In this document: positions 1,799 to 24,740 of the stretch, piece by piece
Layout of the letters: each line of letters begins with the position of its first letter
Position numbering within the stretch: the stretch's first letter is position 1
Virus record (IMG/VR): IMGVR_UViG_3300017719_005958
Location: 1 to 26,566 of that record
DNA length: 26,566 bases
Reading direction: 5' to 3' (one strand)
Source of the DNA: a virus
The notes under the pieces: model-generated
The model's database searches: none
Told to the model about the DNA's origin: nothing
Seen by the model: only the letters and a program-made list of their open reading frames with translations
Position numbers and translations under genes: made by a program

Positions 1799-3070
1799 TT
1801 AATAAACCAAGTATTTATGCTCTTTATTTAGTAGTGGATTAAAGGTTTTAATTTTATCTTTAATTATATTTTGTTTTTTATTTATAATAATAGTAAACCC
1901 ATTATACTTATATGTTCCTTCATCATATTGGTGAATGATATGTTGGAGATTTAAAATAACATCATTAAAATTATTTTGGGTAATGTTAGATAAACTAAAT
2001 TTAATAATAATATCTCCTTTGCTATCACCTATTCTAATATAATCCTTTAAATTCTCAACATTGTACATGTAAGAGTATTCATTCCAGTTATTATCACTAA
2101 AATTAAGAAGTTGATTAGCATAAATGTGCTCATCTTGGTTTATAAATTTATTATAAAATGAAATTTCATTAATATAATTTACATTAAAAAATGTTGATAT
2201 CATTTTAAATGTATCAAAATTATTATTATCAATTTCGATTTCTGAATTTATATTATAGTAGTAATTATTTGGTTTGCCATGGCTAAACCCACCCCATTTT
2301 TTGTTAATACGAGACATTTCAACTAAATCTGCCTGTTGTTGTAATGCCGCTCTTGCTTGTGCTTTTGAATTTTCTTTATTATGCCAATCTTTTCCTCTAC
2401 TAGAAACACAAGTAAAATGATAAACTAAAGCATCCCAAGTTTGAACTATTTTATTTCCATCCAATATTAGTCTATTTAAAACATCAGAATCTTCTCTTGA
2501 ACGTCTAAACCTAGTATCATGGCCCCCTATACTATTCCAAACTTTTTTATACATTGTAAAAGGAGCAAAAAAGTATTCTGTTTGTTTTTCTTCTCTATTG
2601 TGTTCACACCAATCTAAAAACATTTCATATTGAAAATCCTCAGGTGATAATCCAAAGTCAATAGTATGTTTTTCTAAACCAGGACCATGTAAAGGTGGTT
2701 CTATTCTAGTACTAGATAATATCATATTATCTTTTATGTGTTTACTAATATTTACGTCATAATTTTTACTAATTACCATATCTGATTGAAGATAAGAAAC
2801 AATGTCATTAGACGCGAATTCAAACATTTCATTAATATTCCTGGCATAACCATAACATACCGGAAGTGGGTTTTTGAGTATATTAAGATTTGGAAATATT
2901 TGTTTTTGTTCTAATAACCATTCAAAAGTACCTTGATTATCTGAATCTATGAAAACTACAATTTCATGTTCTAGTGTTGATAAATTATCTTGTAATGATT
3001 TAAATAATAACTTAATATAATCTAACTCATTTACAGCAGTATTAATGCAAAAACTAATTAAGTGCTTCAT
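1799..3070 (-). CDS. GT2/GT-A family glycosyltransferase with C-terminal extension
   Basis: A 423-aa cytosolic protein. Residues 1-230 look like a GT-A nucleotide-sugar transferase: an N-terminal beta-strand MKHLISFCINTA, the acidic strand VVFIDSDN (38-45), the metal-site strand YLQSDMVI (93-100) in the position of the usual DXD, a YFFAPFTMY acceptor-type segment, and SREDSDVLNRL with the ED pair often found before the last catalytic helix. Residues 270-423 are Asn/Ile-rich and match nothing I know; they may bind the acceptor. No membrane segment is present. It is the last gene of the sugar block and overlaps the upstream epimerase gene by 17 bases, so translation is probably coupled. Sugar donor and acceptor cannot be read from the sequence. 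Confidence 0.75.
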   Translation of the reverse strand: MKHLISFCINTAVNELDYIKLLFKSLQDNLSTLEHEIVVFIDSDNQGTFEWLLEQKQIFPNLNILKNPLPVCYGYARNINEMFEFASNDIVSYLQSDMVISKNYDVNISKHIKDNMILSSTRIEPPLHGPGLEKHTIDFGLSPEDFQYEMFLDWCEHNREEKQTEYFFAPFTMYKKVWNSIGGHDTRFRRSREDSDVLNRLILDGNKIVQTWDALVYHFTCVSSRGKDWHNKENSKAQARAALQQQADLVEMSRINKKWGGFSHGKPNNYYYNINSEIEIDNNNFDTFKMISTFFNVNYINEISFYNKFINQDEHIYANQLLNFSDNNWNEYSYMYNVENLKDYIRIGDSKGDIIIKFSLSNITQNNFNDVILNLQHIIHQYDEGTYKYNGFTIIINKKQNIIKDKIKTFNPLLNKEHKYLVY

Positions 3071-3815
3071 ATACTTTTTTTATACCTTGTTTTAATCCAA
3101 TATAATTTAATGAATTTAATTTAAATTCCCCAGTATATTTATTTGCTAATCCATCTTGGGTAATTTTAATAGGGCACCTATAATCTGAAAGTTCATTTAT
3201 TATATTAGCTATTTCTTGTAAATTATATGATTTAGAATAACAACAATCAATATGTTTATAAAGTATAGGTTTAGTAATTACTTCTTTTATTATTTGAATT
3301 AAGTCATCTATATAAATAAAATCCATTACTTTGTTTTGGTGGATTTGTAATGGTTCTTTGTTTATATAACGTTTAACATTTGCTTTAATAAAACGAGTAT
3401 CCCATTCATCTTCTCCAAATACCCCAAAAATACGTAAATTAACAAAATAGGGATGTTGTTGTATTATTTTATCAATTATGTTTTTACTTAACCCATAGGG
3501 ATCAGTTGGAAAACCTACTTCAGCTCCAGACCCAAAATTAATAAAACATTTAAATTTATCTTGATTTGCTAGTAAGTTGTAAAACATTAAAATGTTTTTA
3601 TAAAATATATCCCCATCATCAACTTTTAAACGACTGCCTCCTACTATTGCTGTGTGAATTACTGCATCAAATTGTTTATCAGCAAACCATTTATTGGTTT
3701 CTTCTCTATTAGTTAAATCAAAATCTTCTCGTCCAATACTAGTAATTGTGTAATCTAATTTTTTAATTAAATTACGACCTATAAACCCATTTTTTCCTGT
3801 TATTAATACTTTCAT
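3054..3815 (-). CDS. NAD(P)-dependent epimerase/dehydratase (extended SDR)
   Basis: A 253-aa nucleotide-sugar-modifying enzyme of the extended short-chain dehydrogenase family. The Rossmann motif GKNGFIG lies at 7-13, the catalytic Tyr and Lys are in YGLSK (Tyr107, Lys111), and FINFGSGAEVG (91-101) is the strand carrying the Ser of the triad. The DAVIHTAIVGG strand after the first half is also typical. It is somewhat shorter than usual (about 300 aa), with a trimmed C-terminal substrate domain. The general look is closest to GDP-fucose synthase/WcaG-type reductases and epimerases, but the substrate is not certain. The stop overlaps the next gene and the start overlaps the upstream transketolase half by ATGA, placing it in one coupled series with the RmlB-like gene. 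Confidence 0.8.
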   Translation of the reverse strand: MKVLITGKNGFIGRNLIKKLDYTITSIGREDFDLTNREETNKWFADKQFDAVIHTAIVGGSRLKVDDGDIFYKNILMFYNLLANQDKFKCFINFGSGAEVGFPTDPYGLSKNIIDKIIQQHPYFVNLRIFGVFGEDEWDTRFIKANVKRYINKEPLQIHQNKVMDFIYIDDLIQIIKEVITKPILYKHIDCCYSKSYNLQEIANIINELSDYRCPIKITQDGLANKYTGEFKLNSLNYIGLKQGIKKVYEALN

Positions 3816-4282
3816 CTACTTAAATTCAAATAACTAGGTTTTTGATTGCCTATAAATTTTTTAAATATAGATTTTTCAAACGTTTCAGGTTTATATAAGA
3901 TAATATTCTTAAATATGCTCATTACTTCTATATCTTCTTCTGCCCAATGAGAAAATCCTAAATATCCATAATCCTTATCTCTACCCCCACCTACTAATTT
4001 TACTGGGATTTGTTCATTATTTAAATAATTTCTAATCCACTCAAAGGGACGGTATAATACAAAAGGAGTAATTGAGTATACAATTGGAATTTTTCCTTCC
4101 ATAGCTAAACCTACAGCAGTACCTAATAATAATTGTTCTGAGGATAAAGTATTAATAAATCTATCAGGATAATCTATTTTGATTCTATCCCAAAGTCCAT
4201 ATCCTAAATCACCAGTTAACAAATAAATTTTTTCATTTATTGCCATTTCATTATGTAACAGTTCTGCAAATTGTTTTCTCAT
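3812..4282 (-). CDS. transketolase-like, pyrimidine-binding half
   Basis: A 156-aa protein matching the middle (pyrimidine-binding) domain of transketolases. It shows the LLTGDLGYG strand (21-29), FINTLSSEQLLLGTAVGLAM with candidate Glu49 that would contact the thiamine diphosphate aminopyrimidine, the IPIVYSITPF strand, and GYLGFSHWAEEDIEVM, the counterpart of the G-x-T-H-x-x-x-E-D segment. The third transketolase domain is absent. It should pair with the product of the adjacent gene (4279-4887), overlapping it by ATGA, to make a complete thiamine site at the interface. Such split transketolases are known in bacteria and in some surface-sugar clusters. Here the pair probably transfers a two-carbon unit, in sugar synthesis rather than in the central pentose pathway; that role is inferred from context. 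Confidence 0.8.
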   Translation of the reverse strand: MRKQFAELLHNEMAINEKIYLLTGDLGYGLWDRIKIDYPDRFINTLSSEQLLLGTAVGLAMEGKIPIVYSITPFVLYRPFEWIRNYLNNEQIPVKLVGGGRDKDYGYLGFSHWAEEDIEVMSIFKNIILYKPETFEKSIFKKFIGNQKPSYLNLSR

Positions 4283-4887
4283 ATTGTATTGTAATCTTCT
4301 TTACTCATTACATGGTAGTGGGCATTTATTCCTTTTAAAAATGGAGTTTGATTAACAGTAGTATAATGCAAATTAATATTAGGTAAAAAAGATTTTAGGC
4401 GATTTGATAAATATTCTGGATCTACTTTATCATAAGCAGCGTATCCATTTATATTAACATGAACTTCAATATTATTAACTGGGTGTTCTTTAATAAAACG
4501 TAATGATTCCCAAATTGAGCCCTCAGCACATTCCCCATCACTAATTAGAACATATACTTTACGTTTTGGATTTGCTATAGCTCTTCCAACTGCAACTGTA
4601 ATTCCTGTACCTAAGCTGCCAGTAGAACAATATATTTTGTCTTTTTCTGATCTATGAGGATGGCCTCCATATTTTTTAAATAATTCTTCTGCATTTTTAC
4701 CTTCATATTTTTCTAATATTACATAAAGTGCTAAAGCAGCGTGACCTGAGGATAAAATAAATATGTCATTTTTATCTTTTTGGGTATAAATTTTATCTAT
4801 AATGTTAACACTAGATAAATAAGACCCTAAATGTGATAATTTATTTTTATAAGCTATTTCTAGTATACGTTTTTTTAAATCTACCAT
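4279..4887 (-). CDS. transketolase-like, thiamine-diphosphate-binding half
   Basis: A 202-aa protein matching the N-terminal domain of transketolases. FILSSGHAALALY (43-55) matches the substrate/thiamine helix, GGHPHR (74-79) the histidine-containing loop, and STGSLGTGITVAVG (88-101) the G-S-L-G-x-G motif. SDGECAEGSIWESL (116-129) with NINGY (145-149) is the metal and diphosphate motif. The usual GDGE is SDGE here, a change at the first Gly, and the Asp before the Asn-Gly is Asn. At 202 aa it is shorter than stand-alone N-terminal halves (about 270-280 aa), mostly at its C-terminal end. Its partner is the next gene downstream. Start ATG at 4887 overlaps the end of the RmlB-like gene. Confidence 0.8.
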   Translation of the reverse strand: MVDLKKRILEIAYKNKLSHLGSYLSSVNIIDKIYTQKDKNDIFILSSGHAALALYVILEKYEGKNAEELFKKYGGHPHRSEKDKIYCSTGSLGTGITVAVGRAIANPKRKVYVLISDGECAEGSIWESLRFIKEHPVNNIEVHVNINGYAAYDKVDPEYLSNRLKSFLPNINLHYTTVNQTPFLKGINAHYHVMSKEDYNTI

Positions 4888-5867
4888 ATAAAGTTATTTT
4901 TATAATAATCTACTATAGAAGGTAATTCATTATCAAATATAGCTTTTGGTTCCCAACCTAATGCTCTTAATTTATCATCATTTAAAGCATACCTTACGTC
5001 TTGACCTTGTCTAGAATAGGATAAATCTAAAAATTGATCTATATCTTCATTATAATATGGGAATGTCTCTTTTAAAGATTCATCCTGACCATGATATAAT
5101 GTAATAATTTTATTAACAGTATCCAAATTAGTTTGTTCAAAACCACCACAAATATTATATATTTCATTTTTAACTCCGGATTCAATAATAGTAATTATAG
5201 CATTAGCTGTATCCTGAGCATGTAACCAATTTCTTGTTGGGGCTCCATTATTATGTAAGGGAATTTTTTTACCCAAACTTAAGTATTTAATAGACTTAGG
5301 TATTAATTTTTCTACATATTGACCAATACCATAATTATTAGTTGGTCTAATAATTACATAAGGTAAATTATAAGTACGCCCCCAAGCTGTTATTAATTGA
5401 TCAGCGGCTGCTTTAGTTGCAGAATAAGGGTTAGAAGGTTTTAATATATCAGTTTCAATATGTTCTCCCTCTGTTATGTCACCATATACTTCATCAGTTG
5501 AAAAATGTAATAATATGGGTTTAACTTTACCTTCTGCTCTGTAATTCCTAATTAATTCGAGTATATTATGAACCCCATTTACATTAGAATGTAAAAAATC
5601 TTCACTTTTAACTATAGAATTACCTACATGGGTTTCAGCAGCAGTATTAATAATATAATCACATTCATATAAAAATTTTAAATCATTAATATCTGCTTCT
5701 TCAAAACAAAAGTTTGGGTGATATAAAAATTCATTATAAGCATCAGGAAAGTAAGCATAGGTCATTTTATCAACACCCCTAACTTGCCATCCTTTTTTTA
5801 AACATTCTCTAGTAACATAGCTTCCTATAAAACCAAAACAACCAGTTACATATACTATTTTTTTCAT
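4881..5867 (-). CDS. rmlB: dTDP-glucose 4,6-dehydratase-like enzyme
   Basis: A 328-aa extended SDR enzyme expected to convert an NDP-hexose (dTDP-glucose in the family) to its 4-keto-6-deoxy form. It has the NAD motif GCFGFIG (9-15), NTAAETHV (74-81), the catalytic HFSTDEVYG (Thr124, Asp125, Glu126), YSATK (Tyr148, Lys152), and NNYGIGQYVEKLIP, close to the RmlB signature. Length is normal. The usual HVDRS is HVGNS, so nucleotide or sugar selectivity may differ; a CDP- or GDP-sugar substrate cannot be excluded. It is the gateway enzyme for deoxy sugars and lies just upstream of the split transketolase, in the same block as an RfbH/ColD-like PLP enzyme. No RmlC or RmlD was recognised, so the product is probably not rhamnose. 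Confidence 0.85.
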   Translation of the reverse strand: MKKIVYVTGCFGFIGSYVTRECLKKGWQVRGVDKMTYAYFPDAYNEFLYHPNFCFEEADINDLKFLYECDYIINTAAETHVGNSIVKSEDFLHSNVNGVHNILELIRNYRAEGKVKPILLHFSTDEVYGDITEGEHIETDILKPSNPYSATKAAADQLITAWGRTYNLPYVIIRPTNNYGIGQYVEKLIPKSIKYLSLGKKIPLHNNGAPTRNWLHAQDTANAIITIIESGVKNEIYNICGGFEQTNLDTVNKIITLYHGQDESLKETFPYYNEDIDQFLDLSYSRQGQDVRYALNDDKLRALGWEPKAIFDNELPSIVDYYKNNFIW

Positions 5868-5873
5868 ATAAAC

Positions 5874-6308
5874 TTATTTATTATAATATTTTATTTTATC
5901 TGAACAAATCCCTATACATTGTGAGATTTCTTCATTATTATACTCAGGCATTACTGCTATACTTTCAGGTACAGGTTGTTTACCTGGAAATACCCAATAA
6001 TATCCTTTAGAAGTAAGAATAACATCATCGGTTTGATGGAAAAAGTAATTATAATCTGTATTTTTAAAATAAGAAAAAGTGATTAAATCTTTACAGTGTA
6101 TCCATAATTTAGATTTTCTATCTTTTAACCAACTTAAATCTATTTTATATTGAGGAAAATCATGACCCAAATATAATTTATTTTCTACTACTCTAATATC
6201 ACATTCAACATCATACCCTTGTTCTAATGCTTGGTCCAAATAAATAGGATTATTTTCATTAGACAAATCTTTACCATTTATATTTCCTCTATGTGATATT
6301 AAAATCAT
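5874..6308 (-). CDS. GDPD-like phosphodiesterase domain protein
   Basis: A 144-aa protein resembling the N-terminal half of glycerophosphodiester phosphodiesterases (PLC-like TIM barrel). It has ISHRG with His6 and Arg7, YDVECDIR with Glu35 and Asp37, and LGHD with His49, the expected metal and catalytic pattern. The usual family is about 230-260 aa, so the barrel appears shortened, and the C-terminal part (residues 60-144) is not clearly alignable. Short GDPD-like proteins occur in surface-polysaccharide loci. It may remove or process a phospho-linked group on a sugar or glycan; the substrate is unknown. Its start overlaps the methyltransferase stop by ATGA. Confidence 0.65.
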   Translation of the reverse strand: MILISHRGNINGKDLSNENNPIYLDQALEQGYDVECDIRVVENKLYLGHDFPQYKIDLSWLKDRKSKLWIHCKDLITFSYFKNTDYNYFFHQTDDVILTSKGYYWVFPGKQPVPESIAVMPEYNNEEISQCIGICSDKIKYYNK

Positions 6309-6994
6309 AATGGTTTATAAGCTTTTACATAAACCCATGATGGATGTCCTTTATCCGAAAATGTTTCTTTTACGTAAGTTTCTATATTAACAAATCCTAT
6401 ATTAGTTAAATCTTCTGTAATTTCAGATTCACTTTGTACTCTTACATCATGAGCTGAATTTGTACCTCTGGCCTCATAAATGTTTTCATAATAACCAGAT
6501 CTAATTTCTCCTTCATTAATATTTTTACCATACCCCATTTGAAATGAAAATAAACCTCCAGGTTTAAGGGTTCTAAGTAAATCTGTTATTAAAGATTTTC
6601 TAATATCATAAACAGGAATATGTTGAAGGGCAATTGTTGACATAATAAAATCATACTCGTTGCTATTTAATTCAGATACATCAACTCCATTATTTACATA
6701 CCAATTACTATTTTGAGTCTTATTTTTTTCATTACAATATACAATGTTAGCTTCTGAGATGTCAATACCATCTACCCTTTTCCAATTACAAAGAGATAAC
6801 ATATTGGTTACATTTCTACCTTTACCACAAGCAAAGTCTAAACCAACTTTATCTTCCCATTTTTCTTTATCTTTTAAATCACTTAAAAGTATATCCCAAT
6901 AATTAGGGTTGTCATTATGTTCAGGGTGATTAGTAGTACCACTACTATAAGCACCTTTTTGCATTTTAGTATACTGATTGCTGCTATTTACCAT
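6305..6994 (-). CDS. class I SAM-dependent methyltransferase
   Basis: A 229-aa protein with a Rossmann-type methyltransferase core. Motif I is VGLDFACGKGRN (50-61), the acidic residue after strand 2 is in VDGIDIS, motif IV-like NEYDFIMSTIALQHI follows, and LKPGGLFSFQMGYG matches the post-IV strand. Among relatives this pattern is common in small-molecule and sugar methyltransferases. The N-terminal 30 residues are polar and may be a lid. Within the sugar block it most likely O- or N-methylates a nucleotide sugar or glycan. Target atom not predictable; a protein or DNA target is less likely but not excluded. Confidence 0.8.
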   Translation of the reverse strand: MVNSSNQYTKMQKGAYSSGTTNHPEHNDNPNYWDILLSDLKDKEKWEDKVGLDFACGKGRNVTNMLSLCNWKRVDGIDISEANIVYCNEKNKTQNSNWYVNNGVDVSELNSNEYDFIMSTIALQHIPVYDIRKSLITDLLRTLKPGGLFSFQMGYGKNINEGEIRSGYYENIYEARGTNSAHDVRVQSESEITEDLTNIGFVNIETYVKETFSDKGHPSWVYVKAYKPL

Positions 6995-8345
6995 AATTCT
7001 CTAAATAATATTTTAAATCTTCTGGGGTTCCAAGACCCCACATTCCATTAACATTAAAGGTTCTAATTTGTTTATTATCACCTATTGCTTCATTAAACAC
7101 AGGACAAACATAAAATTCTTTGTTAACACGAATGTTTTTTTCAATCATTTGTTCAGCATATTTAACAAAATCACTTCCTTGTTTCCAGTAATAATACCCT
7201 ACAGTTGCTATATTTGATATTGGTTTTTTTTCTGCTACTTCAGTTACTAAACCTTGTTCGTTTACTTTAGCAAATGACCACTTAGGATGTGTAGCTTTAA
7301 ATGTAACAATACCTCCATCAGCATCTGTTTCATTCATTTTATATAGGAACTCATTACTATCCCATTCTACAAATTGATCAGAATTAGCAAAAAATAATGG
7401 TGCTTCTGTATTAATATGTTCTTTAGCTAATAGTGCGGTACAGGCAGCCCCTTCAGTCATACCCTCTGTTTCTACTATCTTACAGCCTGGGGTGATTAAT
7501 GATAATAAAGCATCTAAATTATATTTTTCACGATGAGATTTTTGTACTACATAAATGTAATTAGCTTTTATATTTAAATTCTCTACTACCACTTGTATCA
7601 TTGGTTTTTTTCTTACCTCAATAAGTGGTTTTGGGAAAGTATAACCTGCTTGTTCAAATCTACTTCCTGCCCCTGCCATTGGAATTAAAACATTTAATGT
7701 TTCATCTCTCCAAGCAGGGGAAATTTGTTTTTCATTCATTTGTATTTGGTTTAATTTATTATATACATTTTTAATAGTTACCTCTTTTGGATTTTTTACA
7801 CGGAGAATATACGATTTACTTCTTGCAGCGGCAAGTAAACCATAAGGAGAGTCTTCTACAATTAATGTTTCTTCGGGTAAGCATTTCATCTTAGATATTG
7901 CTGCCCAATACATTTCTGGATGTGGTTTTGAATTTACTACATCTTCATTTGAAATAAGTAAATCAAAATATTCTATTATTCCTAGTTTAGCTAGCACTGT
8001 AACTACTGTTTTGCGAATTGAATTTGAACATACTGCTAGTTTATACCCATCTGATGTTAATGATTGGATTAATTCTGTTAATGAATTATTAGGTTTTAAT
8101 TCTTTTAACATTTCTAATGTAAAATGTTGTTTTGAATTCCAAACATGCTCATGGTCCTCTACAGGTAAACCTTTTTCTTTAGTTAACATTTCTAATTTTT
8201 GGAATGTTTTTAAACCATCATAAGTAGATAAATGTTCATTCCAACTAATAGCATAATCCCCTAATGCCTTATTTAAAGCATCAAAATGAATATTTTTTGC
8301 TTCAACTAAAACACCATCTAAATCAAAAATAACTAATTTAATCAT
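6984..8345 (-). CDS. fusion of HAD phosphatase/phosphoglucomutase-like domain with sugar nucleotidyltransferase
   Basis: A 453-aa two-domain enzyme. Residues 1-195 are a HAD hydrolase of the beta-phosphoglucomutase subgroup: FDLDGVL with Asp8 and Asp10, a His20 as in beta-phosphoglucomutase, VCSNS (105-109), Lys140 in SKPHPEMY and VEDSPYG (163-169). Residues 216-453 are an NTP-transferase: LIPMAGAGSRF (220-230), the FPKPLIEV lysine motif (238-244), and FANSDQF with Asp323 for metal binding. The fusion suggests that one polypeptide isomerises or dephosphorylates a sugar phosphate and then makes the NDP-sugar. It could supply the RmlB-like enzyme. The nucleotide and sugar are not deducible. It overlaps both neighbours (11 bases and ATGA), in the middle of the sugar block. 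Confidence 0.85.
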   Translation of the reverse strand: MIKLVIFDLDGVLVEAKNIHFDALNKALGDYAISWNEHLSTYDGLKTFQKLEMLTKEKGLPVEDHEHVWNSKQHFTLEMLKELKPNNSLTELIQSLTSDGYKLAVCSNSIRKTVVTVLAKLGIIEYFDLLISNEDVVNSKPHPEMYWAAISKMKCLPEETLIVEDSPYGLLAAARSKSYILRVKNPKEVTIKNVYNKLNQIQMNEKQISPAWRDETLNVLIPMAGAGSRFEQAGYTFPKPLIEVRKKPMIQVVVENLNIKANYIYVVQKSHREKYNLDALLSLITPGCKIVETEGMTEGAACTALLAKEHINTEAPLFFANSDQFVEWDSNEFLYKMNETDADGGIVTFKATHPKWSFAKVNEQGLVTEVAEKKPISNIATVGYYYWKQGSDFVKYAEQMIEKNIRVNKEFYVCPVFNEAIGDNKQIRTFNVNGMWGLGTPEDLKYYLENYGK

Positions 8346-9070
8346 ACTTCTCCTCTCATATTAGGATTTATATTATATTCTTTAAATAAAATATCTAATT
8401 CTTTTTTATATTCACTAGTATTCCATTTTCCTTTATTTATGGCTGTAGCGATATAAGGAAAAACAATACTATCACAATGATATACTCCTCTTTTTATTTC
8501 ATTTCCTAATTTTACCATATAAGAATTAAAATTATTTTTAACTGCTTTTTCAAAATCCCAAATGTTTAAAGACCCTACACTACTAAGTATTGATAAAAAT
8601 GAAGTTTTTGAAATAATAGTAGGTTGTATTGAAAATTGAGAAAATTCATTAGTTATTAAGGTATCATCAACATCCGAGATTATATCTCCTGTAAGGCCAA
8701 AACTGCCAGATATTTGGTGAGAAGGGACATAAATCATTTTAATTGAATCTACTTTTTTATCTCTAACTAAATTAAAATATCTTTCAATATAGTCAAATTT
8801 AGGTTCATTAAATAAAATCATGTCTTCATGTAAAAACATAAATACTTCTTCTTTAATTTGTGGTAAAATTTGTTCCCATCTATTAGTGTAAGGAATAGAA
8901 TCGTCATATAATACCTGTGTGTGTTCTTTTGGAATTAAAGGGCTTTTTTTATTTAAAGCTACATATACTTTAGTATTACTATCATATTTTTGAAGTTGGC
9001 CAAAAAATACTGGCCATACATCTTCCATGTCAGTATGTGTATATAATATTAATGGTAAATTTATTCCCAT
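8342..9070 (-). CDS. putative glycosyltransferase-like protein
   Basis: A 242-aa cytosolic protein without a firm family. The order of features fits a GT-A transferase: LPLILYTHTDMEDVW at the N-terminus, NRWEQILPQIKEEVFMFLHEDMILF around residues 64-88 with the HEDM acidic strand in the place of a DXD, and a later CDSIVFPYIATA segment. No membrane segment or cysteine motif. It sits between the nucleotidyltransferase fusion and another glycosyltransferase-like gene, overlapping the latter by 10 bases (stop TAA inside the first codons). The call rests mainly on the HEDM strand and the neighbourhood. Confidence 0.5.
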   Translation of the reverse strand: MGINLPLILYTHTDMEDVWPVFFGQLQKYDSNTKVYVALNKKSPLIPKEHTQVLYDDSIPYTNRWEQILPQIKEEVFMFLHEDMILFNEPKFDYIERYFNLVRDKKVDSIKMIYVPSHQISGSFGLTGDIISDVDDTLITNEFSQFSIQPTIISKTSFLSILSSVGSLNIWDFEKAVKNNFNSYMVKLGNEIKRGVYHCDSIVFPYIATAINKGKWNTSEYKKELDILFKEYNINPNMRGEV

Positions 9071-10412: not shown

Positions 10413-10415
10413 ATT

Positions 10416-16058: not shown

Positions 16059-16504
16059 ATTTTTATAATTACTGGGGTAGTGAATTCACCTTCTTTTTGT
16101 TTATATTTTATTTCTGCTATAACTGGGGTTGCTTTGGATGGGTATTCAAGGGTTATATTTCGTTTAGTCCCATTTAATAAATCTAACCTATCAAACTTAA
16201 TATTTTTAATAAGAGCCCCGTTAGCATCTTTTATTTCAACTATTCCTTCTACAAAATTACAGGAACAACTAACTTGTTTTCTAATTTCCTTCCATTCTTC
16301 TTTCCAACTAACATTTATAGAAGATTGGGTACCCACTTCTGTAAATTTAAAAAGGTTATCACTTAAATTGTTTAATTTTTGTTGTCTTCTATCACAACCA
16401 CAATCTTCTTTTCCCCGTAGTTTAGCTATCCTAGTTGCTATTTTTTTACCTTGACCAAAGGTAATAACTCGAATTATTTTTTCTACTAAATCTCCTAATT
16501 TCAT
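16055..16504 (-). CDS. hypothetical phage protein with two CxC pairs
   Basis: A 149-aa protein. The N-terminal 50 residues are basic and helical (GDLVEKIIRVITFGQGKKIA...) with C35-G-C37, a layout I associate with short phage proteins of unknown function. The C-terminal part is beta-rich, contains C80-S-C82, and ends with alternating strands (IVEIKDANG, RNITLEYPS, IAEIKYKQ), suggesting a small beta-sandwich. The two CxC pairs could hold a metal ion or disulfides. It lies amid glycosyltransferase genes with ATGA overlaps on both sides, which suggests a related role, for example a scaffold, a structural protein or a glycosylation target. That is a guess. Confidence 0.5.
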   Translation of the reverse strand: MKLGDLVEKIIRVITFGQGKKIATRIAKLRGKEDCGCDRRQQKLNNLSDNLFKFTEVGTQSSINVSWKEEWKEIRKQVSCSCNFVEGIVEIKDANGALIKNIKFDRLDLLNGTKRNITLEYPSKATPVIAEIKYKQKEGEFTTPVIIKI

Positions 16505-16938
16505 GGTATTACTTTAATATATGATAGAGCATCCATAAAATCACGTTCTTCAAAATGTTTTATTGTAGACATGTCTGCTCTATATTTAGCATTCTTATAT
16601 TTTTTTCTTTCTTTTTTAGGTACTTTAACATGTTTTACAGCTCCCCATTTCCAGTTTTCTGGGCCACTACCATCAGCAAACACCATACCTTTTCCTTCTA
16701 CATTATGAAATGAGGGCATCCATACTTTACTTGATTCTTCTTCACCTATTAAAGCTTTATAAAGATCTGGAAGGGTTTCTAATTGTTCCTTTAAAAATTG
16801 GCTATCAACTGTCATTAAAGAATTAGATTGAAAACCACACCCATAACATAATTCTATTTTTATATCTTTAGTTACTTCAGATACATAACATGCATCTGAA
16901 CCACAGCGGGTGCACTCTATTAAATTATCATAAGCCAT
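16501..16938 (-). CDS. zinc-ribbon protein, function unknown
   Basis: A 145-aa protein with a zinc ribbon at its N-terminus (C9-x2-C12, C31-x2-C34) and a C-terminal region with Trp- and Gly-rich segments (GSGPENWKWGAVKHV) and a strongly basic stretch KKERKKYKNAKYR. No nuclease or transferase motif is visible. Its stop overlaps the CxC protein start by ATGA, and its start overlaps the GT4 stop by one base. It could be a nucleic-acid-binding adaptor or a small structural protein. The family was not recognised. Confidence 0.5.
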   Translation of the reverse strand: MAYDNLIECTRCGSDACYVSEVTKDIKIELCYGCGFQSNSLMTVDSQFLKEQLETLPDLYKALIGEEESSKVWMPSFHNVEGKGMVFADGSGPENWKWGAVKHVKVPKKERKKYKNAKYRADMSTIKHFEERDFMDALSYIKVIP

Positions 16939-18233
16939 TATTCTACTTTTTGTAATTTTGGAATATTTAATTTAGGTAATTTCAATTCAGTTTGTGTTGG
17001 GAATTTAGGTATATTTGCCTCTAAAACACTATCAACTAATTCTTGCATTTTATCAAAACTAAATCTAGATCTACTAAAATTCTTTTGTTGTTTAGATTTA
17101 ACTAAATATTGTTTATATTTTTTATAAACATCTTTTAAAGATTTTCCTATTTCTCCATCATGTGGTTTAAACCATTTAGATTCTTTAATTAGCCAATCAT
17201 TAGCTGCACTTTCATGTACATTTTCTAATTCACCCCCAATTAAAGTAGTAAAGGATGTTTTTAAAAAGTCAGTATGTCCTGACCAATTACTAGCTATAAT
17301 GGGTTTACCTGTTAGACTAAACTCAAGTAAGGGCCTACCATATCCCTCTCCTTTAGTAAAGCTAATCATAGATTTTACTTTAGGGTGGTGATACAATTCA
17401 TTCATTTCTTGATCACTAAATTCTCCATTTAAAACATAAATGTTAGGTAAAGTAGATGAATTAACTGTTTTACGAATATTTTTAATTCGCTTTAAAATTT
17501 CTTCTCTACTCATATAAGAAGATACTCCTATAGATGCTTTTAAAATTAAAGCAGGTTTTGGTTTATTTGGTCCTTTAAAAGTTTCATAAAATGCTTTAAT
17601 CATTTTACCTACATTTTTTCTATCATGACCAAAATGTCCTTGCATCCAATGTCCTACAAACAAATAACAAAAAGATTCTTTTATTTCACTTAAATCAATT
17701 GTTTTAATTTCTTTGGATGTAATATGCTTATATACATCTAAATTAGCACCTTCAAATATTACTTCAATTGGTTTTTGTAAAGTAATATTCCCTTCTTTTT
17801 GATTTGTTTGTTTATTAATTTTTTCATAATTAACACTTTCAAAAGTTTGCTTTGCAAAATTAGATGATACCCAATTCATGTCCATTCTATTTAAACCTTC
17901 AATCCATTCTGGTTTGCATAAATTAGATTCAATCCCAGCAGTACATCCTATATTATACTTTCCTACTGTTTGAAATTCATTTGGAATAGTAATTTGCATC
18001 CAAATATCGGGTTTTGTTGTGAGCTTATTTTCAGGTAATCTATGATTGTTTAAAAATTCCCATTCAGGGTTATCTTTACAAAACCCCCAAGCAGTTGATC
18101 CCCAACGTTGGGCCATTAATTTTACATCGTATTTACCGGTATTAATTATTGCTTTAACTATATCTCTAGCACGAGCGCCATAACCGGAGTAAGTATCAAA
18201 AGGGCAACTTATTGCAAAAACTGGTTTATTCAT
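16938..18233 (-). CDS. GT4-family glycosyltransferase
   Basis: A 431-aa GT-B enzyme. The N-terminal glycine-rich acceptor loop is SGYGARARDIV (16-26). The C-terminal donor domain has FGHDRKNVGKMIKAF (the conserved R-K after the linker), PNIYVLNGEFSDQEMNELY and KGEGYGRPLLEFSLTGKPIIAS, where the E-x7-E motif reads E-G-Y-G-R-P-L-L-E. This matches GT4 retaining transferases, which use UDP-, GDP- or dTDP-sugars. The C-terminal tail (about 400-431) is Pro/Leu/Lys-rich and low-complexity. No membrane segments. It follows another GT4 gene with a one-base TAATG overlap; the two may act in sequence. Confidence 0.85.
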   Translation of the reverse strand: MNKPVFAISCPFDTYSGYGARARDIVKAIINTGKYDVKLMAQRWGSTAWGFCKDNPEWEFLNNHRLPENKLTTKPDIWMQITIPNEFQTVGKYNIGCTAGIESNLCKPEWIEGLNRMDMNWVSSNFAKQTFESVNYEKINKQTNQKEGNITLQKPIEVIFEGANLDVYKHITSKEIKTIDLSEIKESFCYLFVGHWMQGHFGHDRKNVGKMIKAFYETFKGPNKPKPALILKASIGVSSYMSREEILKRIKNIRKTVNSSTLPNIYVLNGEFSDQEMNELYHHPKVKSMISFTKGEGYGRPLLEFSLTGKPIIASNWSGHTDFLKTSFTTLIGGELENVHESAANDWLIKESKWFKPHDGEIGKSLKDVYKKYKQYLVKSKQQKNFSRSRFSFDKMQELVDSVLEANIPKFPTQTELKLPKLNIPKLQKVE

Positions 18234-19672
18234 TAGTATATAATTTCGTGTTTTAAATGTCTTCCATTAAATTCGGTAGCGTTTATTATTTCATATTTTT
18301 CTCTTGGTTTCCAAGTTTCAAATAATTCAGTAAAAGCTTCCATTACTCTGTTAGCTTGATGTTTAGAGGTAAATCCAGCTTCATCACTTAAAGCCCATTC
18401 TCTACCTTTTAAACCTAATGCTTTACGTTGTTCTCGAGTCATTTTATATAATTCTATAATTTGATCCCTAGCATCTTCCCATTTACATCTATCATCAAAA
18501 ATATAAGGGGTCATAGGTGAACCTTGAACCGAACGTGATGTAGGAAAACATGGGAAAACCCATTCCCCATGATTATTCATTGTTTGTCTATGGTTAGAAG
18601 GTAATTCTGGGGATGGAGTAAACCAATTACCATCTTTATCTTCAAATCGCATCTGATCCTGCATACCTCCTGTAACATTAGCTATAAAAGGAGTTCCAGC
18701 TAACATTGCTTCTGTAATTGTTAGTCCCCAACCTTCATTTGATGTTAATAGTATTTGGACATCTGCAATATTATAACAGTGATTTAATTGATTAGTGGAA
18801 AGTTTACCTGTAGAAAATAAAACATTATCAGGATATTTTTCATCAAATAAATATTCTTTTACTGCTCCTAAATCTGTTCCAGCATCTGTTCTGATTTCGG
18901 TATGTAATAAGAATTTACATTGTAATGCTTCTTCATAAGGTAATTGATCTAAAAATGATCTAAAAGCTAATAAAGCATCTGGGATTTGTTTGCGTCTAAT
19001 ATTTCTAGAATTAAAAAATAAAACAAATTTAGGATCTGATTTACCAAAAAATTTCTTTTTTGTTTCTAATAATTCTTTATTATCTGCTGGTAAGGGTTTG
19101 AAAGCATCAGAATTTAGGCCATGTGGAACATATTTAAATATTCTATTTTTAGCTGCATCACCCAATACAATTTTATTTATATTTACTGTTTGTTTCGAAA
19201 TCCCCATTAATAAATCACATGCTTCATAAAATGCACGATTATACATGGGAGCAGGATAATCATCCCATATATTTAAGTAAGCAATTGGAATATTTTTACG
19301 TATTTCTTGTTCAGCATTAAATACATGAGTAAAATATCTTGGGTCTGTAATTAGTAATAATGCATCTGGGTTTTCTCTAGCTATAACTTGACGTAATAAC
19401 TCAATATTACCATAACCATCAGCTGGGTACATCATTACATAAGCATCATTTACTCCTACTTGGTCACCAGTATCTTTACTAATATCTAACCCTTTACCTT
19501 TATCTGGATGTTTAATTGCTCCTGCAATTTGGCACCAATTAAAGTGATGGCAAGTATGTACTACTATTTCACGAGCAACTGTAGCTACTCCTGAGTGTAC
19601 TCTAATGTCATCACAAATTAAGAGGATTTTTTTCCTATCTTCTTTAGGAACATGTTCAAAACTATTTTTCAT
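18233..19672 (-). CDS. GT4-family glycosyltransferase
   Basis: A 479-aa GT-B enzyme, the largest complete gene here. It has KILLICDDIRVHSGVATVAREI with the N-terminal glycine loop, MYPADGYGN, FFNSRNIRRKQIPDALLAF with the donor-binding Arg-Lys, and LLTSNEGWGLTITEAMLAGTPFIAN, whose E-G-W-G-L-T-I-T-E gives the E-x7-E pair. VTGGMQDQM follows, as in many GT4 enzymes. It is longer than typical GT4 enzymes (350-420 aa), with insertions between the donor motifs. It is the first gene of the main sugar block and starts 12 bases after the ribbon-helix-helix gene. Confidence 0.86.
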   Translation of the reverse strand: MKNSFEHVPKEDRKKILLICDDIRVHSGVATVAREIVVHTCHHFNWCQIAGAIKHPDKGKGLDISKDTGDQVGVNDAYVMMYPADGYGNIELLRQVIARENPDALLLITDPRYFTHVFNAEQEIRKNIPIAYLNIWDDYPAPMYNRAFYEACDLLMGISKQTVNINKIVLGDAAKNRIFKYVPHGLNSDAFKPLPADNKELLETKKKFFGKSDPKFVLFFNSRNIRRKQIPDALLAFRSFLDQLPYEEALQCKFLLHTEIRTDAGTDLGAVKEYLFDEKYPDNVLFSTGKLSTNQLNHCYNIADVQILLTSNEGWGLTITEAMLAGTPFIANVTGGMQDQMRFEDKDGNWFTPSPELPSNHRQTMNNHGEWVFPCFPTSRSVQGSPMTPYIFDDRCKWEDARDQIIELYKMTREQRKALGLKGREWALSDEAGFTSKHQANRVMEAFTELFETWKPREKYEIINATEFNGRHLKHEIIY

Positions 19673-19684
19673 TAATTTTTGGAT

Positions 19685-19870
19685 TTATAATTCGAGAGTA
19701 TTTTGATTAGAAATTTGTTTACGAAAATCTTCATCTGTAAGATACAAATAAATAGCCCGATCGGCAAGTTTTTGGAATGAAAATTTACGCTTTACACATT
19801 CAATCTTGAAGTTCTCAAATAAATCGCTTTTAACTTTTACACTTGTAAGTGTCATGTCTTTTGTTGGCAT
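19685..19870 (-). CDS. small ribbon-helix-helix-like DNA-binding protein
   Basis: A 61-aa protein. Residues 6-13 (MTLTSVKV) form a beta-strand with alternating polar residues, 15-28 (SDLFENFKIECVKR) a helix, and 30-45 (FSFQKLADRAIYLYLT) a second helix. That is the layout of a ribbon-helix-helix repressor or antitoxin-type DNA-binding protein, which acts as a dimer. It lies directly before the sugar block and after a 43-base non-coding gap, a natural place for a local regulator of that block. No toxin partner is visible. The fold is inferred from pattern alone. Confidence 0.6.
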   Translation of the reverse strand: MPTKDMTLTSVKVKSDLFENFKIECVKRKFSFQKLADRAIYLYLTDEDFRKQISNQNTLEL

Positions 19871-19913
19871 AATCTTTATTATTAAAACGTTTATTATAAA
19901 TATATGTATATCT
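19871..19913 (-). promoter_or_regulatory. candidate promoter region ahead of the RHH gene and sugar block
   Basis: A 43-base gap with only A/T-rich sequence, read on the minus strand as alternating TATA and TTTA tracts (TATACATATATTTATAATAA). It is one of only a few gaps longer than 40 bases and lies before the ribbon-helix-helix gene and the long sugar block. A promoter or operator is plausible, but no consensus is firm and no inverted repeat stands out. Confidence 0.3.
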
Positions 19914-20882
19914 CTAAAATTTTAACCCTTCTCCACAAAGTTCTAAATTTTCTTTAAAGGGGCAAAAAGTACAATTCCACTTTGAAGGTGATTTAGGATA
20001 TTCAATTTCTTTTATTTCACCACTTGATACAAAGCATTCTTTTATAAAATTATCTATAGCTTTTTTAGCTCTACTTAATTTTATTTTCCCACTAGGTGGA
20101 CTGAATGTTTGTACCCTATATGCCTGGTGAGGGGACATAATATTTTCATCATCAAACGATAATACTTTTCTCTTTACAATAAAAAACTCAATTTCAATAT
20201 CCTTTAAAGGAATACCATATTGCTCACTAAAAAATTGTTTATACAATAATAATTGATATTGTTTATCTTCATTCTTTTTATCTCGTTCTTTCCAACCACG
20301 AGTACTAGTTTTAATATCTATAATTTTAAATGTATTGTATTTTTCATTATATAATACCACATCAAGGAAACCTGTATATTTTATGTTAGTATACATTTTA
20401 TTTGGGGAAATAACTAAAGGTACTTCGCAACCAACTAAATGCCATCCTCTTCTAGAAAAATATTTAGCACGTTTTTTCTTAAACCAATTTAAAATACCAA
20501 TTCCATCTTCATAAAATTCTCTCATTTCTTCAGCAGATGAAAAATGCTGATTTTTGTTTCGTTTGTATTGGGATTGATATTCTTCAATAAATTTTTCATT
20601 GAATAATTCTTCTAGATCAATTCTGTCAGCACCTGCCGCACTTGTATCAAACATCACATCTAAATAATGCTGGAGTACTTCATGTATAGCAGTTCCAAAT
20701 ACGGTATGGATTGATGAAGTGAATGCCTTTATTTTGTCTTTATATTGTAACTTCCAACGATATGGACAACCACGAAATATAGACATTTGTGAGTATGAGA
20801 CATTCTTTTGATAAGCAAAATTAATCTCTTGGGGAGGATTCGAACGAATCTCCCTTACTATTTTAGGTATTTTTCTAGCCAA
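19914..20882 (-). CDS. PD-(D/E)XK nuclease, Cas4/RecB-like, with iron-sulfur-type cysteines
   Basis: A 322-aa predicted DNA exonuclease. The core motifs are VFGTAIHEVLQ (His67), GFLDVVLY (Asp174), FKIIDIKTS (Asp189, Lys191) and QYQLLLYKQF (Gln210 and Tyr214, the QxxxY motif). Cysteines at 39 (GCPYRW) and at 304, 307 and 316 (CTFC...C) match the four-cysteine iron-sulfur staple of Cas4 and AddB-type nucleases. The start is TTG at 20882-20880: the first ATG would be Met33, inside the conserved N-terminal YSQMSIFRGCP segment, and the upstream gene stops three bases before. In T4-like phages such nucleases process DNA ends during replication or recombination. No CRISPR genes are near, so a Cas4 role is unlikely. 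Confidence 0.85.
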   Translation of the reverse strand: MARKIPKIVREIRSNPPQEINFAYQKNVSYSQMSIFRGCPYRWKLQYKDKIKAFTSSIHTVFGTAIHEVLQHYLDVMFDTSAAGADRIDLEELFNEKFIEEYQSQYKRNKNQHFSSAEEMREFYEDGIGILNWFKKKRAKYFSRRGWHLVGCEVPLVISPNKMYTNIKYTGFLDVVLYNEKYNTFKIIDIKTSTRGWKERDKKNEDKQYQLLLYKQFFSEQYGIPLKDIEIEFFIVKRKVLSFDDENIMSPHQAYRVQTFSPPSGKIKLSRAKKAIDNFIKECFVSSGEIKEIEYPKSPSKWNCTFCPFKENLELCGEGLKF

Positions 20883-20885
20883 AAT

Positions 20886-21317
20886 TTATTTTTTCCATTT
20901 GTCACGTCCTACTAATAAACCAATTATTCCATAATTAGCTATATCAATAAACGTGTCCTCCATTCCTTCGCCTTTAACAAAGTTTTTACCATTAATAAGC
21001 AAATTTTTTAATCTACTAATTTTATCAGTTAATCTAATAGTTAAACCAGTAAGTGAAAACTTTTTATCATCATCATTAGTCAAATCTCCTCCTAAAGCGA
21101 TATTATTTAGACCATAATCAAGATGTTTACGAGCAAACATTTCATACATTTCATTTTGTATTTCCCTAAATTCTTGAGATAATTCAGGATAGTCTTTTTC
21201 AAATTTTCTAACTGCTGCTGCATCTGGATTTTTTGCATCCATAATCTCTCTATCACTCATACCTTTTAGTTTAGCGTTTTCTTCTAATTCAAATGCTTTT
21301 GATACTATATCACCCAT
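20886..21317 (-). CDS. DUF1599/Nmad1-like protein
   Basis: A 143-aa helical protein with the pattern of DUF1599 (nucleotide-modification-associated domain 1). MYEMFARKHLDYGLNNIALGG (54-74) is followed by LTIRLTDKISRLKNLL (92-107) and GMEDTFIDIANYGIIGLLVG (117-136). This matches the order K-x-x-D-Y-G, D-K-I-x-R-x-K-N-L and E-D-x-x-x-D-x-x-N-Y found in the family. Family members occur in phages and Bacteroidota and are predicted to be linked to modified nucleotides, but no activity is established for this one. It overlaps the 76-aa gene by 8 bases. The neighbouring sugar genes make a DNA-modification link worth noting, but that is inference. Confidence 0.7.
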   Translation of the reverse strand: MGDIVSKAFELEENAKLKGMSDREIMDAKNPDAAAVRKFEKDYPELSQEFREIQNEMYEMFARKHLDYGLNNIALGGDLTNDDDKKFSLTGLTIRLTDKISRLKNLLINGKNFVKGEGMEDTFIDIANYGIIGLLVGRDKWKK

Positions 21318-21540
21318 TAACTTGTTCTTTTGGTAATGTAAAATATTTATTTAATGTCTCAATTTTATCATCTGCATCTACTAAAACGGATAATGCTTCA
21401 TTAGCATTATTATAAAAATCATCTGTTGAATGGTCTCCAATTCCAGCGGGGTGTTCGCTTAATAAGTTTAAAGTAAGAATTGCTTTTGTTCTTTCGGCCA
21501 CTGCTTGTGCCATTAACATTTCAAATAGTTCCGGTTTCAT
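21310..21540 (-). CDS. small hypothetical protein, 76 aa
   Basis: A 76-aa, mostly helical, acidic protein. The segment HPAGIGDHSTDDFYNNANEAL (about 30-50) recalls small conserved proteins of T4-like phages, but I do not know a function. It begins inside the end of the GT-A gene (20-base overlap) and ends inside the start of the DUF1599-like gene (8-base overlap), so it is probably translationally coupled to both. No cysteines or membrane segments. Confidence 0.55.
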   Translation of the reverse strand: MKPELFEMLMAQAVAERTKAILTLNLLSEHPAGIGDHSTDDFYNNANEALSVLVDADDKIETLNKYFTLPKEQVNG

Positions 21541-22432
21541 ATAGTTGATTTAGTTTAGTTATCATTTTATTCATTACATTTATTCTTTTTTCCCCATGGA
21601 AAAATAATAATTCTTCTTTATTAGCGGGTATTTTTAGCCATGGTCTTATATCTCTTACATCTCCCGTAAAACCTAAATGAGAATAAATTTCATCTATTGT
21701 CTCCAATGTACCATTAATATATACAAGAGGCAAGCCATTATAAAATTCTCTGTCCCAAAGTAAAGGATTTAATACTGTTTCTTCATGAAAAGGAGCATAG
21801 TAAGCTGTGTCTTTTAATATAGTGGGATGTTTACACATCCAATCCCATTCTTCTAAAAAATCTATATTGTTTTTTCCTGTTATAAAATACCCAGTTTGTC
21901 TATAAAATCTAGCTATTCTATTATATTGATTTAACCTAAATAATTCGCTTATAGGATGTTCTAAAGTGGTACTTAAATCATTTTCATCCATTGCTCCTCC
22001 TCTTCCATTCCAATGTAAAAATTGGTATATTCCTTGACTAAAATAAGGATAAGATTCACTAGGATTAAAATAATTAAAAATATTTTCTACATAAGGAGTA
22101 GCAATTGAGTCACTATCAATATATGCTACTATGTCTGAAAAATTTTCTAAAGCATGTTTAGTAATTAATGGTTTTTGGATTAGGATATTATAAATTTCGC
22201 TACTGTTTCTATTTATATAAAAGTTATTACCTTCTTCAATATAATTGTTTTTTTGTTCTTTGAATGATATATCCCATTTAATTGTAGTAACACCAGCTAT
22301 ATTGCATTTTTTATTACTATTAATTAAATATAAGTAAATAGGTAAATTACTGTATTGTCTTATTGATTTAATACAAGTAGATACTATATCAAAATATTTT
22401 TCATTAGAATGTAAAATAAATGATTTTTCCAT
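21521..22432 (-). CDS. GT-A family glycosyltransferase (GT8-like layout)
   Basis: A 303-aa protein. It starts with SFILHSNEKYFDIVSTCIKSIRQY, has ILIQKPLITKHALENFSDIVAYIDSDSI with Asp106-x-Asp108 as the DXD, and GYFITGKNNIDFLEEWDWM plus EETVLNPLLWDRE in the C-terminal half. This order (two-domain GT-A with a D-S-D and an E-E-T base region) resembles GT8-type and related stress-sugar transferases. No membrane helix. It is separated from the main sugar block by phage genes and starts one base after the paralogous GT2 gene. Donor unknown. Confidence 0.75.
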   Translation of the reverse strand: MEKSFILHSNEKYFDIVSTCIKSIRQYSNLPIYLYLINSNKKCNIAGVTTIKWDISFKEQKNNYIEEGNNFYINRNSSEIYNILIQKPLITKHALENFSDIVAYIDSDSIATPYVENIFNYFNPSESYPYFSQGIYQFLHWNGRGGAMDENDLSTTLEHPISELFRLNQYNRIARFYRQTGYFITGKNNIDFLEEWDWMCKHPTILKDTAYYAPFHEETVLNPLLWDREFYNGLPLVYINGTLETIDEIYSHLGFTGDVRDIRPWLKIPANKEELLFFHGEKRINVMNKMITKLNQLYETGTI

Positions 22433-22433
22433 T

Positions 22434-23168
22434 TTAATTAATATTTTTTAGTATTTTAAATCCTTTTTTAATATAAAAAGAATAAATATTATTAAATGCC
22501 TCAAAAGATTCTGGGGATTGGGATATTCCTACTTTATCTGGGCCGTTTCCTATAGTCCAAGCTGTTTCAGGTTTACTACCCCACATTTCAATATCATTAG
22601 CAGGATGGGGAGGAACATAAGTATTTTTATTTAAATATTTCTGTAAAGTATAAGAAAAATGAATATCTTCTCCTACATAAACTGATTGGTCTATTTCAGG
22701 AAGTTCTCTCCAAAAGGTAGAAAGCCATTCTCTCCTAAAAAACCAAGAATGTCCTACAATATCTACTTGTTCAACATTTTCGTTTGGGTTTGCCCATCCT
22801 ATCCTATGAGAGGGCCAATATGCTTCATTACTTTCATATCTAACTCCTATAGTACCTAATAATCCATCATATTGTTGGATAGTGCTAATACAATTTTCTA
22901 GCCATTTACTCCCCGGAATAGTATCATCATCTAGAATACAAATATAAGGGGTTTTAGCATTTAAAGCATATGAAAATCTAGCCCATACTCCTAAATTAGA
23001 ATTACAACTTGCATGTTGAGTAGAATTAATTAAATCAAAATCAAACTCACTACCTTTATTTTGCCACATCATTACAGTTTGGGCTTGAAGGGTTTGAGAT
23101 TTTATTGCTTCTAACTGTTGAGCTAAGGCATATGGTCTTTTATATCCATTTAAAATAACAGTTATCAT
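22434..23168 (-). CDS. GT2-like glycosyltransferase, paralogue B
   Basis: A 244-aa GT-A enzyme, the second copy of the family seen at 12550-13320. It begins with the same MITVILNGYKR, has YICILDDDTIPGSKWLENC (Asp80-Asp82 as metal triad), VDIVGHSWFFRREWL, VGEDIHFSYTLQKY and VPPHPANDIEMWGS. The two proteins differ in residues 35-60 and in their last 40 residues. It starts six bases after the clamp-loader small-subunit stop, so it is probably expressed with the replication genes. It uses a nucleotide sugar donor of unknown type. Confidence 0.82.
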   Translation of the reverse strand: MITVILNGYKRPYALAQQLEAIKSQTLQAQTVMMWQNKGSEFDFDLINSTQHASCNSNLGVWARFSYALNAKTPYICILDDDTIPGSKWLENCISTIQQYDGLLGTIGVRYESNEAYWPSHRIGWANPNENVEQVDIVGHSWFFRREWLSTFWRELPEIDQSVYVGEDIHFSYTLQKYLNKNTYVPPHPANDIEMWGSKPETAWTIGNGPDKVGISQSPESFEAFNNIYSFYIKKGFKILKNIN

Positions 23169-24716: not shown

Positions 24717-24740
24717 ATGCCCCAATATACAACTTTTATT

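Follow-up and report, generated by a model that had tools for sequence, protein, structure and literature searches.

What does a T4-related phage build with some 20 sugar genes, and on what does it build it? The question is raised by IMG/VR virus record IMGVR_UViG_3300017719_005958, a fragment of 26,566 bases (26.6 kb; GC 29%) that we examined whole and refer to as 'the window'. Its genes lie on the minus strand, and about 20 of them, between T4-type clamp-loader genes and the gene for an HNH-endonuclease-like protein, have to do with sugars. What the 'LPS (lipopolysaccharide) genes' carried by large T4-like phages do has been a standing question ever since the first genomes of marine cyanophages appeared. 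The explanation we favor, at somewhat better than an even chance, is that the locus is a glycan-assembly island of a T4-related phage, which glycosylates, in the cytosol, an acceptor that the phage itself encodes and that is most likely a virion protein. We hold a fuller picture more tentatively, at a little under an even chance. It is of a serotype-like locus in large aquatic phages, in which three constant transferases prime the virion protein, an interchangeable cassette determines the outer glycan, and a recurrent, virus-enriched module based on a compact split transketolase leads to a C-branched 3,6-dideoxy sugar, the virions being coated with self-made, exchangeable and unusual glycans.

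Constant core and exchanged cassette

The genes between positions 1799 and 23168 are genuine open reading frames (ORFs), all on one strand and tightly packed, most of them overlapping by 1–20 bp. The original prediction, made from the bare sequence, described about 20 overlapping sugar genes here, adjoining T4-like replication genes, and our ORF check and domain searches bear it out. The replication neighbors are the large (gp44-like, 23814–24725; AAA and Gp44_lid matches, conserved context) and small (gp62-like, 23175–23585; phrog_225, 4.9e-17) subunits of the clamp loader. Genes of other kinds are interspersed in the span: a PD-(D/E)XK exonuclease, a DUF1599 protein, small Zn-ribbon and unknown genes, and 'u149'. 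What the prediction missed is the constant-core/variable-cassette architecture, and with it the branched-sugar pathway.

The architecture emerges from comparison with relatives (tblastn synteny and ORF comparison). The replication block is kept, together with the glycosyltransferases GT4b, GT4a and GT2c and the Zn-ribbon protein Zn145; on the opposite side Zn116, the HNH gene and a lysozyme-like gene are kept; what lies between is exchanged as a block among close relatives. This variable cassette occupies 1799–15448. In a sister contig, G027, one flank has 86–89% DNA identity to the window along 9.5 kb and the opposite flank 95% along 1.8 kb, and window positions 1,791–15,440 have no nucleotide similarity to this contig. 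All 16 flank and core genes are present in G027 (mean identity 90%), and none of the 18 cassette genes, presence being scored at 35% identity or more. Four further relatives (G029, G032, G034 and G019) display the same pattern of kept flanks and exchanged cassette, and another, G043, shares one cassette gene, at 37%.

Such relatives are numerous: 80 IMG/VR contigs have the gp44 of the window and 65 have its WecB-type epimerase, several in records of 170–274 kb. Of the cultured phages, Flavobacterium phage vB_FspM_immuto (Immutovirus; 'immuto' below) is the closest relative, and its complete 160-kb genome encodes T4-like gp20 and gp23; the hosts of the lineage are therefore probably Bacteroidota. 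The immuto locus (49–62 kb) has the order PD-(D/E)XK exonuclease, u61, GT4b, GT4a, Zn145, GT2c, cassette, Zn116, HNH, as in the window, but the cassette is another one, without the WecB module and without the split transketolase described below.

Among the core proteins, GT4b (18233–19672; PF00534, 4.6e-13) occurs in nearly all relatives (53% identity in immuto), and its nearest solved relative in a profile search is the chlorella-virus glycosyltransferase B736L (8.7e-9). GT4a (16938–18233) matches its family weakly (PF00534, E 0.003) and is kept in the relatives compared. So is Zn145 (16501–16938), encoded downstream of GT4a and present in immuto too. GT2c (15435–16058; PF00535, 2.3e-8) is 61% identical in immuto. 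Microcystis phage Mel-JY01 has the trio GT4b, GT4a and GT2c too, identically ordered (GT4a, 6.8e-150; GT2c, 4.4e-58), with no match to Zn145, and Rhodothermus phage RM378 carries GT4b. In Mel-JY01, GT4b is spread over two consecutive ORFs (L185, 13441–14932), either a real split or a frameshift. Ratios of non-synonymous to synonymous substitution (dN/dS) are 0.12–0.20 for the core glycosyltransferases, window versus G027, and 0.07–0.27 for cassette genes among relatives. The genes are under purifying selection and their catalytic residues are intact, which speaks for function rather than filler.

The locus has the architecture of an O-antigen locus, minus the genes for export. O-antigen and capsule loci likewise have constant flanks around swapped sugar genes, but the phage locus lacks their Wzx, Wzy and WecA. 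In nine phages the cassettes encode 73 proteins, among them GT2 glycosyltransferases, SDR (short-chain dehydrogenase/reductase) dehydratases and epimerases, UDP-glucose dehydrogenases (UDP, uridine diphosphate), methyltransferases and aminotransferases; no export family is among the 25 families listed for them. Variable clusters of nucleotide-sugar enzymes and glycosyltransferases are found in other T4-like phages as well, namely cyanophages P-SSM2, S-SSM7 and S-SM2 and the pelagimyophages (PMC3037559, PMC7029224). The present locus differs from these in its constant core of three glycosyltransferases, its clean cassette boundaries and its split-transketolase pathway, and whereas many pelagimyophage glycosyltransferases lie in a tail-fiber island concerned with host recognition, this island lies between replication genes and the HNH gene. 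Moraphages, likewise large phages of aquatic habitats and for the most part associated with Bacteroidota, have chaperones and four groups of core glycosyltransferases; they are described as a lineage apart from the T4 families, and the portion of the source that we draw on mentions no such cassette locus (PMC12619734).

The sugars of the cassette

The enzyme classes named by the original prediction—for activation, dehydration, epimerization, amination, acetylation and methylation—were recovered by Pfam, NCBIfam and PHROGs: a HAD-fused nucleotidyltransferase, an RmlB-type 4,6-dehydratase, WecB, a GNAT acetyltransferase, a methyltransferase and an SDR. Pfam and NCBIfam further confirm two DegT/RfbH-type enzymes dependent on pyridoxal phosphate (PLP), a two-gene transketolase, and four GT2 and two GT4 glycosyltransferases.

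Five of these genes suggest a branched sugar. The 4,6-dehydratase (4881–5867; TIGR01181, 1.1e-85), of the type acting on nucleoside diphosphate (NDP)-hexoses, keeps the TDE and YxxxK motifs. The RfbH/ColD-like 3-dehydratase (14297–15448), which probably starts at codon 28 of a 410-aa ORF, aligns with CDP-4-keto-6-deoxyglucose-3-dehydrase E1 (3bcx, 7e-57; CDP, cytidine diphosphate). It has His212 (ORF numbering) at the site of the PLP lysine, and no Fe–S cysteines, and because of these two features we assign it ColD-like chemistry by alignment. The transketolase is compact and split into a subunit of 202 aa that binds thiamine diphosphate (ThDP) (4279–4887; SDG...N motif; N component of the split-chain transketolase 6yak, 5.6e-14) and a pyrimidine subunit of 156 aa (3812–4282; PF02779, 3.8e-10) with a conserved Glu49. 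An SDR reductase/epimerase (3054–3815; PF01370, 8.6e-24) closes the operon.

Some 80 viral loci have this gene set, which bacteria seldom carry. Around 82 genes for the compact transketolase, the second subunit is nearby in all 82, an SDR in 78 and a 4,6-dehydratase of at least 50% identity in 69. An RfbH-like enzyme lies within 4.5 kb in 58, and all 58, like the window's own (59/59), have His at the PLP site. A scan of viruses yielded 224 relatives of the compact transketolase and a scan of genomes three in 84,980 species, although different peptide patterns were used for the two and their ratio is uncalibrated. In the Actinomarina phylum (297 genomes) the center genome alone scored >120 bits, and in the Roizmanbacteria phylum (287 genomes) the center genome and two others did so; the remaining matches in both samples were mostly subunits of 270–300 aa at ~100 bits or less. 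In a phylogenetic tree the compact forms make up one clade, separate from the 270–300-aa subunits and with few bacterial members inside, the bootstrap support being not fully settled. Protein searches of INPHARED with WecB, the transketolase and the RfbH-like enzyme were set aside, the matches being distant and many of them in records resembling bacterial DNA.

The most economical interpretation of these sequences is that the set leads to a C4-branched 3,6-dideoxyhexose. The 4,6-dehydratase followed by the His-type 3-dehydratase would yield an NDP-4-keto-3,6-dideoxyhexose; the split transketolase would then add a two-carbon ketol branch at C4, and reduction by the SDR would be followed by transfer, perhaps by GT2a (1799–3070; PF00535, 1.4e-7), the product of the last cassette gene. 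There is precedent for ThDP enzymes that introduce branches into keto-sugars (e.g. YerE). In the yersiniose A pathway (DdhB, DdhC, YerE and YerF) the succession is likewise 4,6-dehydratase, 3-dehydratase, ThDP-dependent branching and reductase, but the branching enzyme there is a YerE-type decarboxylase and that of the cassette is of transketolase type. The phage pathway thus appears to work like the YerE pathway without being a member of it. Transketolase-type branching by a split-gene enzyme has been proposed for miharamycin (PMC12247030). In the open-access literature we found no description of a phage-borne branched-sugar pathway, or of this locus. The compact split transketolase, paired with a His-type 3-dehydratase, offers a new lead for the enzymatic synthesis of C-branched sugars.

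A second set of cassette enzymes makes or modifies other sugars. The UDP-GlcNAc 2-epimerase WecB (11562–12560; TIGR00236, 6.5e-64, above cut-off; GlcNAc, N-acetylglucosamine) retains its catalytic residues in alignment with 6vlb, and from these and from its family its predicted product is UDP-N-acetylmannosamine (UDP-ManNAc). Amination and acetylation may accompany it in this phage, by a DegT aminotransferase (9786–10412; PF01041, 3.1e-21; Lys116 invariant in alignment) and a GNAT acetyltransferase (10416–10805; PF00583, 2.6e-12). At 208 aa the aminotransferase is little over half the usual length, and it is found at 70–84% identity in many large phages; WecB and the transketolase are likewise shorter than bacterial forms. 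A HAD phosphatase fused to a sugar-1-phosphate nucleotidyltransferase (6984–8345; PF13419, 4e-31; PF00483, 9.5e-13) is 55–80% conserved in many phages, with dN/dS of 0.07–0.09 among relatives. The set also includes an S-adenosylmethionine (SAM)-dependent methyltransferase (6305–6994; PF08241, 5.8e-13), a GDPD-like phosphodiesterase fragment or domain (5874–6308; HRG motif; phrog_34507, 4.8e-29), and two conserved module members, u241 (9061–9786; phrog_13607) and u242 (8342–9070; conservation).

Transferases are fewer than the eleven or so first predicted. Six to eight have support: the four GT2 and two GT4 enzymes, a protein with the GT-D fold (10790–11569), and u327 (13317–14300), a GT-B-like glycosyltransferase whose counterparts in three of 13 relatives match the glycosyltransferase domain WsaF_C (at best 2e-4); three others had been guesses. 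Among the GT2 enzymes, GT2b (12550–13320; PF00535, 1e-6) has an invariant DDD motif in alignment. Profile–profile tests of u241 and u242 against GT2 failed, and with no support as glycosyltransferases the two are not counted.

The acceptor of the glycan

The original prediction found no membrane helices in the cluster proteins and no flippase, polymerase or lipid-carrier transferase, and proposed a soluble target, virion proteins or DNA. Our hydropathy scan agrees on the first point: a convincing membrane segment is found in none of the cluster proteins, the highest 19-residue mean being 1.68, within the HAD core. As the record is only 26.6 kb long, the absence of an exporter had to be tested in relatives, and there it survived. 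The flippase family Wzx (PF01943) was matched in none of 46 phage records (25 large related records, 17 split-transketolase virus records, immuto, Mel-JY01, RM378 and a 484-kb phage); most of the virus records may be incomplete, and immuto, Mel-JY01 and RM378 are labeled complete. Controls were positive in 13 of 14 known genomes, and the two bacterial genomes that share the transketolase did match the Wzx family. WecA (PF00953) was absent from 25 related records, WbaP (PF02397) from 34, and Wzy_C (PF04932) and ABC-2 (PF01061) from 14 each. Hydropathy scans of six records, immuto included, turned up no protein predicted to span the membrane more than four times apart from tape-measure-like ones. 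One candidate exporter, a 1069-aa protein of G001 with 12 hydrophobic segments, was rejected; its gene lies near the sheath gene, and it parallels the hydrophobic, annotated tape-measure protein of immuto. In the records tested, then, both the initiating transferase and the flippase, polymerase or exporter of a Wzx/Wzy- or ABC (ATP-binding cassette)-dependent surface polysaccharide locus are missing.

The alternatives within the proposed soluble target do not fare equally: virion protein is favored, by the spread of the core transferases across host phyla and by the GT-D fold, and DNA is disfavored. Since the core glycosyltransferases are kept in phages whose hosts belong to different phyla, the acceptor is more readily understood as phage-encoded than as host LPS. 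Working in the cytosol of the host, GT4b, GT4a and GT2c would start the glycan on a conserved acceptor encoded by the phage, most likely a virion protein, and the replaceable cassette would make special activated sugars and attach them as an outer, antigen-like part. The transferases of the cluster are phage-encoded and soluble, as they are in virion protein glycosylation systems. Mycobacteriophages reportedly glycosylate their virions with one to a few glycosyltransferases acting on host nucleotide sugars; the cluster of the window, by contrast, is a whole sugar biosynthesis program. In mycobacteriophages the subunits of the capsid and of the tail tube carry glycans made by phage glycosyltransferases (Freeman et al. 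2023, as cited in PMC12619734).

The GT-D-like protein bears on the same point. Its AlphaFold2 (AF2) model has a mean confidence (pLDDT) of 92, and the top three Foldseek matches are the DUF1792 structures 4phr, 4pfx and 5v4a (probability 1.00, E 1.8e-5). The DGE motif does not vary among 17 phage sequences, and the score against family PF22882 is below the Pfam cut-off (E 0.006; 16.3 bits versus 27). A GT-D member of DUF1792 adds glucose to the protein Fap1 (PMC5063993). Soluble glycosyltransferases acting in sequence on a protein, and the GT-D fold, are common to the phage cluster and the cytosolic O-glycosylation of streptococcal Fap1 (Gtf1/2/3, and dGT1 with DUF1792), but the phage cluster has no identified serine-rich-repeat acceptor or accessory Sec system, and sequence similarity is negligible.

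Several considerations weigh against a glycosylated virion protein. The acceptor is putative and tied to no particular protein, the donor, acceptor and branch position of the transketolase are likewise putative, and the open-access literature gave no virion glycoprotein data for this phage or for immuto. The GT-D likeness is one of fold (TM score ~0.5, 10–14% identity), and the next Foldseek matches, below significance, are the ManNAc transferases TagA and TarA, of a lipid-carrier pathway. Export of the product by a flippase of the host is conceivable, and the glycosyltransferases of pelagimyophages have been assigned to modification of the host O-chain (PMC7029224).

These last points lead to the strongest competitor, remodeling of the host surface, in which phage sugars and transferases alter host LPS or capsule by way of the host's own lipid carrier and flippase and so block co-infecting phages. 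Beyond the pelagimyophage precedent, the cassette enzymes resemble those of O-antigen synthesis, and a hypervariable cassette would suit varied host surfaces. We nevertheless consider it unlikely, though worth keeping in view. The tested records lack an initiating transferase, flippase, polymerase, ABC exporter or large multi-span membrane protein, and core transferases common to phages of Bacteroidota and Cyanobacteria are unexpected if the acceptor is host-specific LPS.

Phage glycosyltransferases that act on DNA are well known, and the sugar locus adjoins replication genes, so hypermodification of DNA, with sugars placed on modified bases as in T4-type glucosylation or arabinosylation, comes to mind. 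The base hydroxymethylase on which glycosylation of T4-type hydroxymethylcytosine (hmC) depends did not appear in immuto, G001 or G017, whose ThyA-like genes carry the Asn of thymidylate synthase (GLPFN) and not the hydroxymethylase signature. Deazaguanine genes in immuto, G019 and G005 represent a separate modification, absent from G001 despite its rich sugar cluster, and to our knowledge no DNA glycosylation pathway has nearly as many sugar genes as the cassette. DNA is thus an improbable acceptor. The deazaguanine loci themselves (immuto, L184 5008–12015 and L188 18607–19488; G019, 0.7–6.1 kb; G005, 105.9–108.0 kb) have QueD, QueE and FolE in all three phages, and QueC and DpdA in immuto and G019.

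A soluble metabolite, for carbon metabolism or as a small-molecule decoy, might instead be the product of the transketolase and dehydratase genes. Transketolases are central carbon enzymes, and the product here is putative. Yet much of a normal transketolase is missing from each subunit, the two share an operon with the 4,6- and 3-dehydratases and the SDR in most loci, and in the window they sit within the glycosyltransferase cluster, all of which leaves this idea more improbable still. Neutral accretion has the least to recommend it and is very improbable indeed: cyanophage LPS clusters, described with function unknown, have been considered as passenger 'stuffer DNA' for which large heads have room (PMC3037559), but low dN/dS, intact catalytic residues, a constant insertion site and function-coherent content in at least nine phages are at odds with it here.

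If virions are indeed coated with glycans of this kind, exchange of cassettes would give phages a serotype-like diversity, with consequences for adsorption and host recognition. The presence of a core/cassette locus in the cultured phage immuto makes the question directly testable.

Neighboring genes and a second variable site

At the cassette edge lies u149 (16055–16504), which in its AF2 model has an N-terminal CGC part and an Ig/FN3-like beta-sandwich. Confidence is good for residues 59–149 (pLDDT ~88) and low for the N-terminal part, which has a conserved LGD...CGC pattern. The protein occurs in some relatives only and is truncated in G027, and its Ig-like part has no significant match in the PDB. 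Speculatively, going by the model, it is a candidate decoration or acceptor protein.

The constant flank beyond GT4b encodes u61, a conserved 61-aa protein (19685–19870; 52–100% identity in 19 relatives), the PD-(D/E)XK exonuclease (19914–20882; PF12705, 4.7e-24; 98% in G027) and the DUF1599 protein (20886–21317; PF07659, 1e-8). A GroEL-like chaperonin (25192–26565; PF00118, 2.4e-44; 57.5% to immuto GroEL; conserved context) is cut by the window end. On the other side are Zn116 (1401–1751; 91% in G027), the HNH-endonuclease-like protein (781–1395; phrog_14736, 1.6e-9; 99% in G027) and a lysozyme/transglycosylase-like protein with an N-terminal hydrophobic segment (32–619). Zn145 and Zn116 are Zn-ribbons of similar pattern and bracket the variable region in nearly all relatives.

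A second variable site (21310–23168) lies between gp62 and a 76-aa gene (21310–21540). In the window it holds GT2d (22434–23168; PF00535, 9.4e-7), a paralogue of GT2b that is absent in G027, and a putative GT-A glycosyltransferase (21521–22432) suggested by a DxD-like motif, YIDSDS, with no PDB match and 81% identity in G027. In relatives the site is present, partial, empty or occupied by other genes. Finally, near a clamp loader and a split-transketolase glycan cluster in another record (L138, 30–2180), we noticed a 716-aa protein of collagen-like repeats, a possible candidate for a glycoprotein acceptor.

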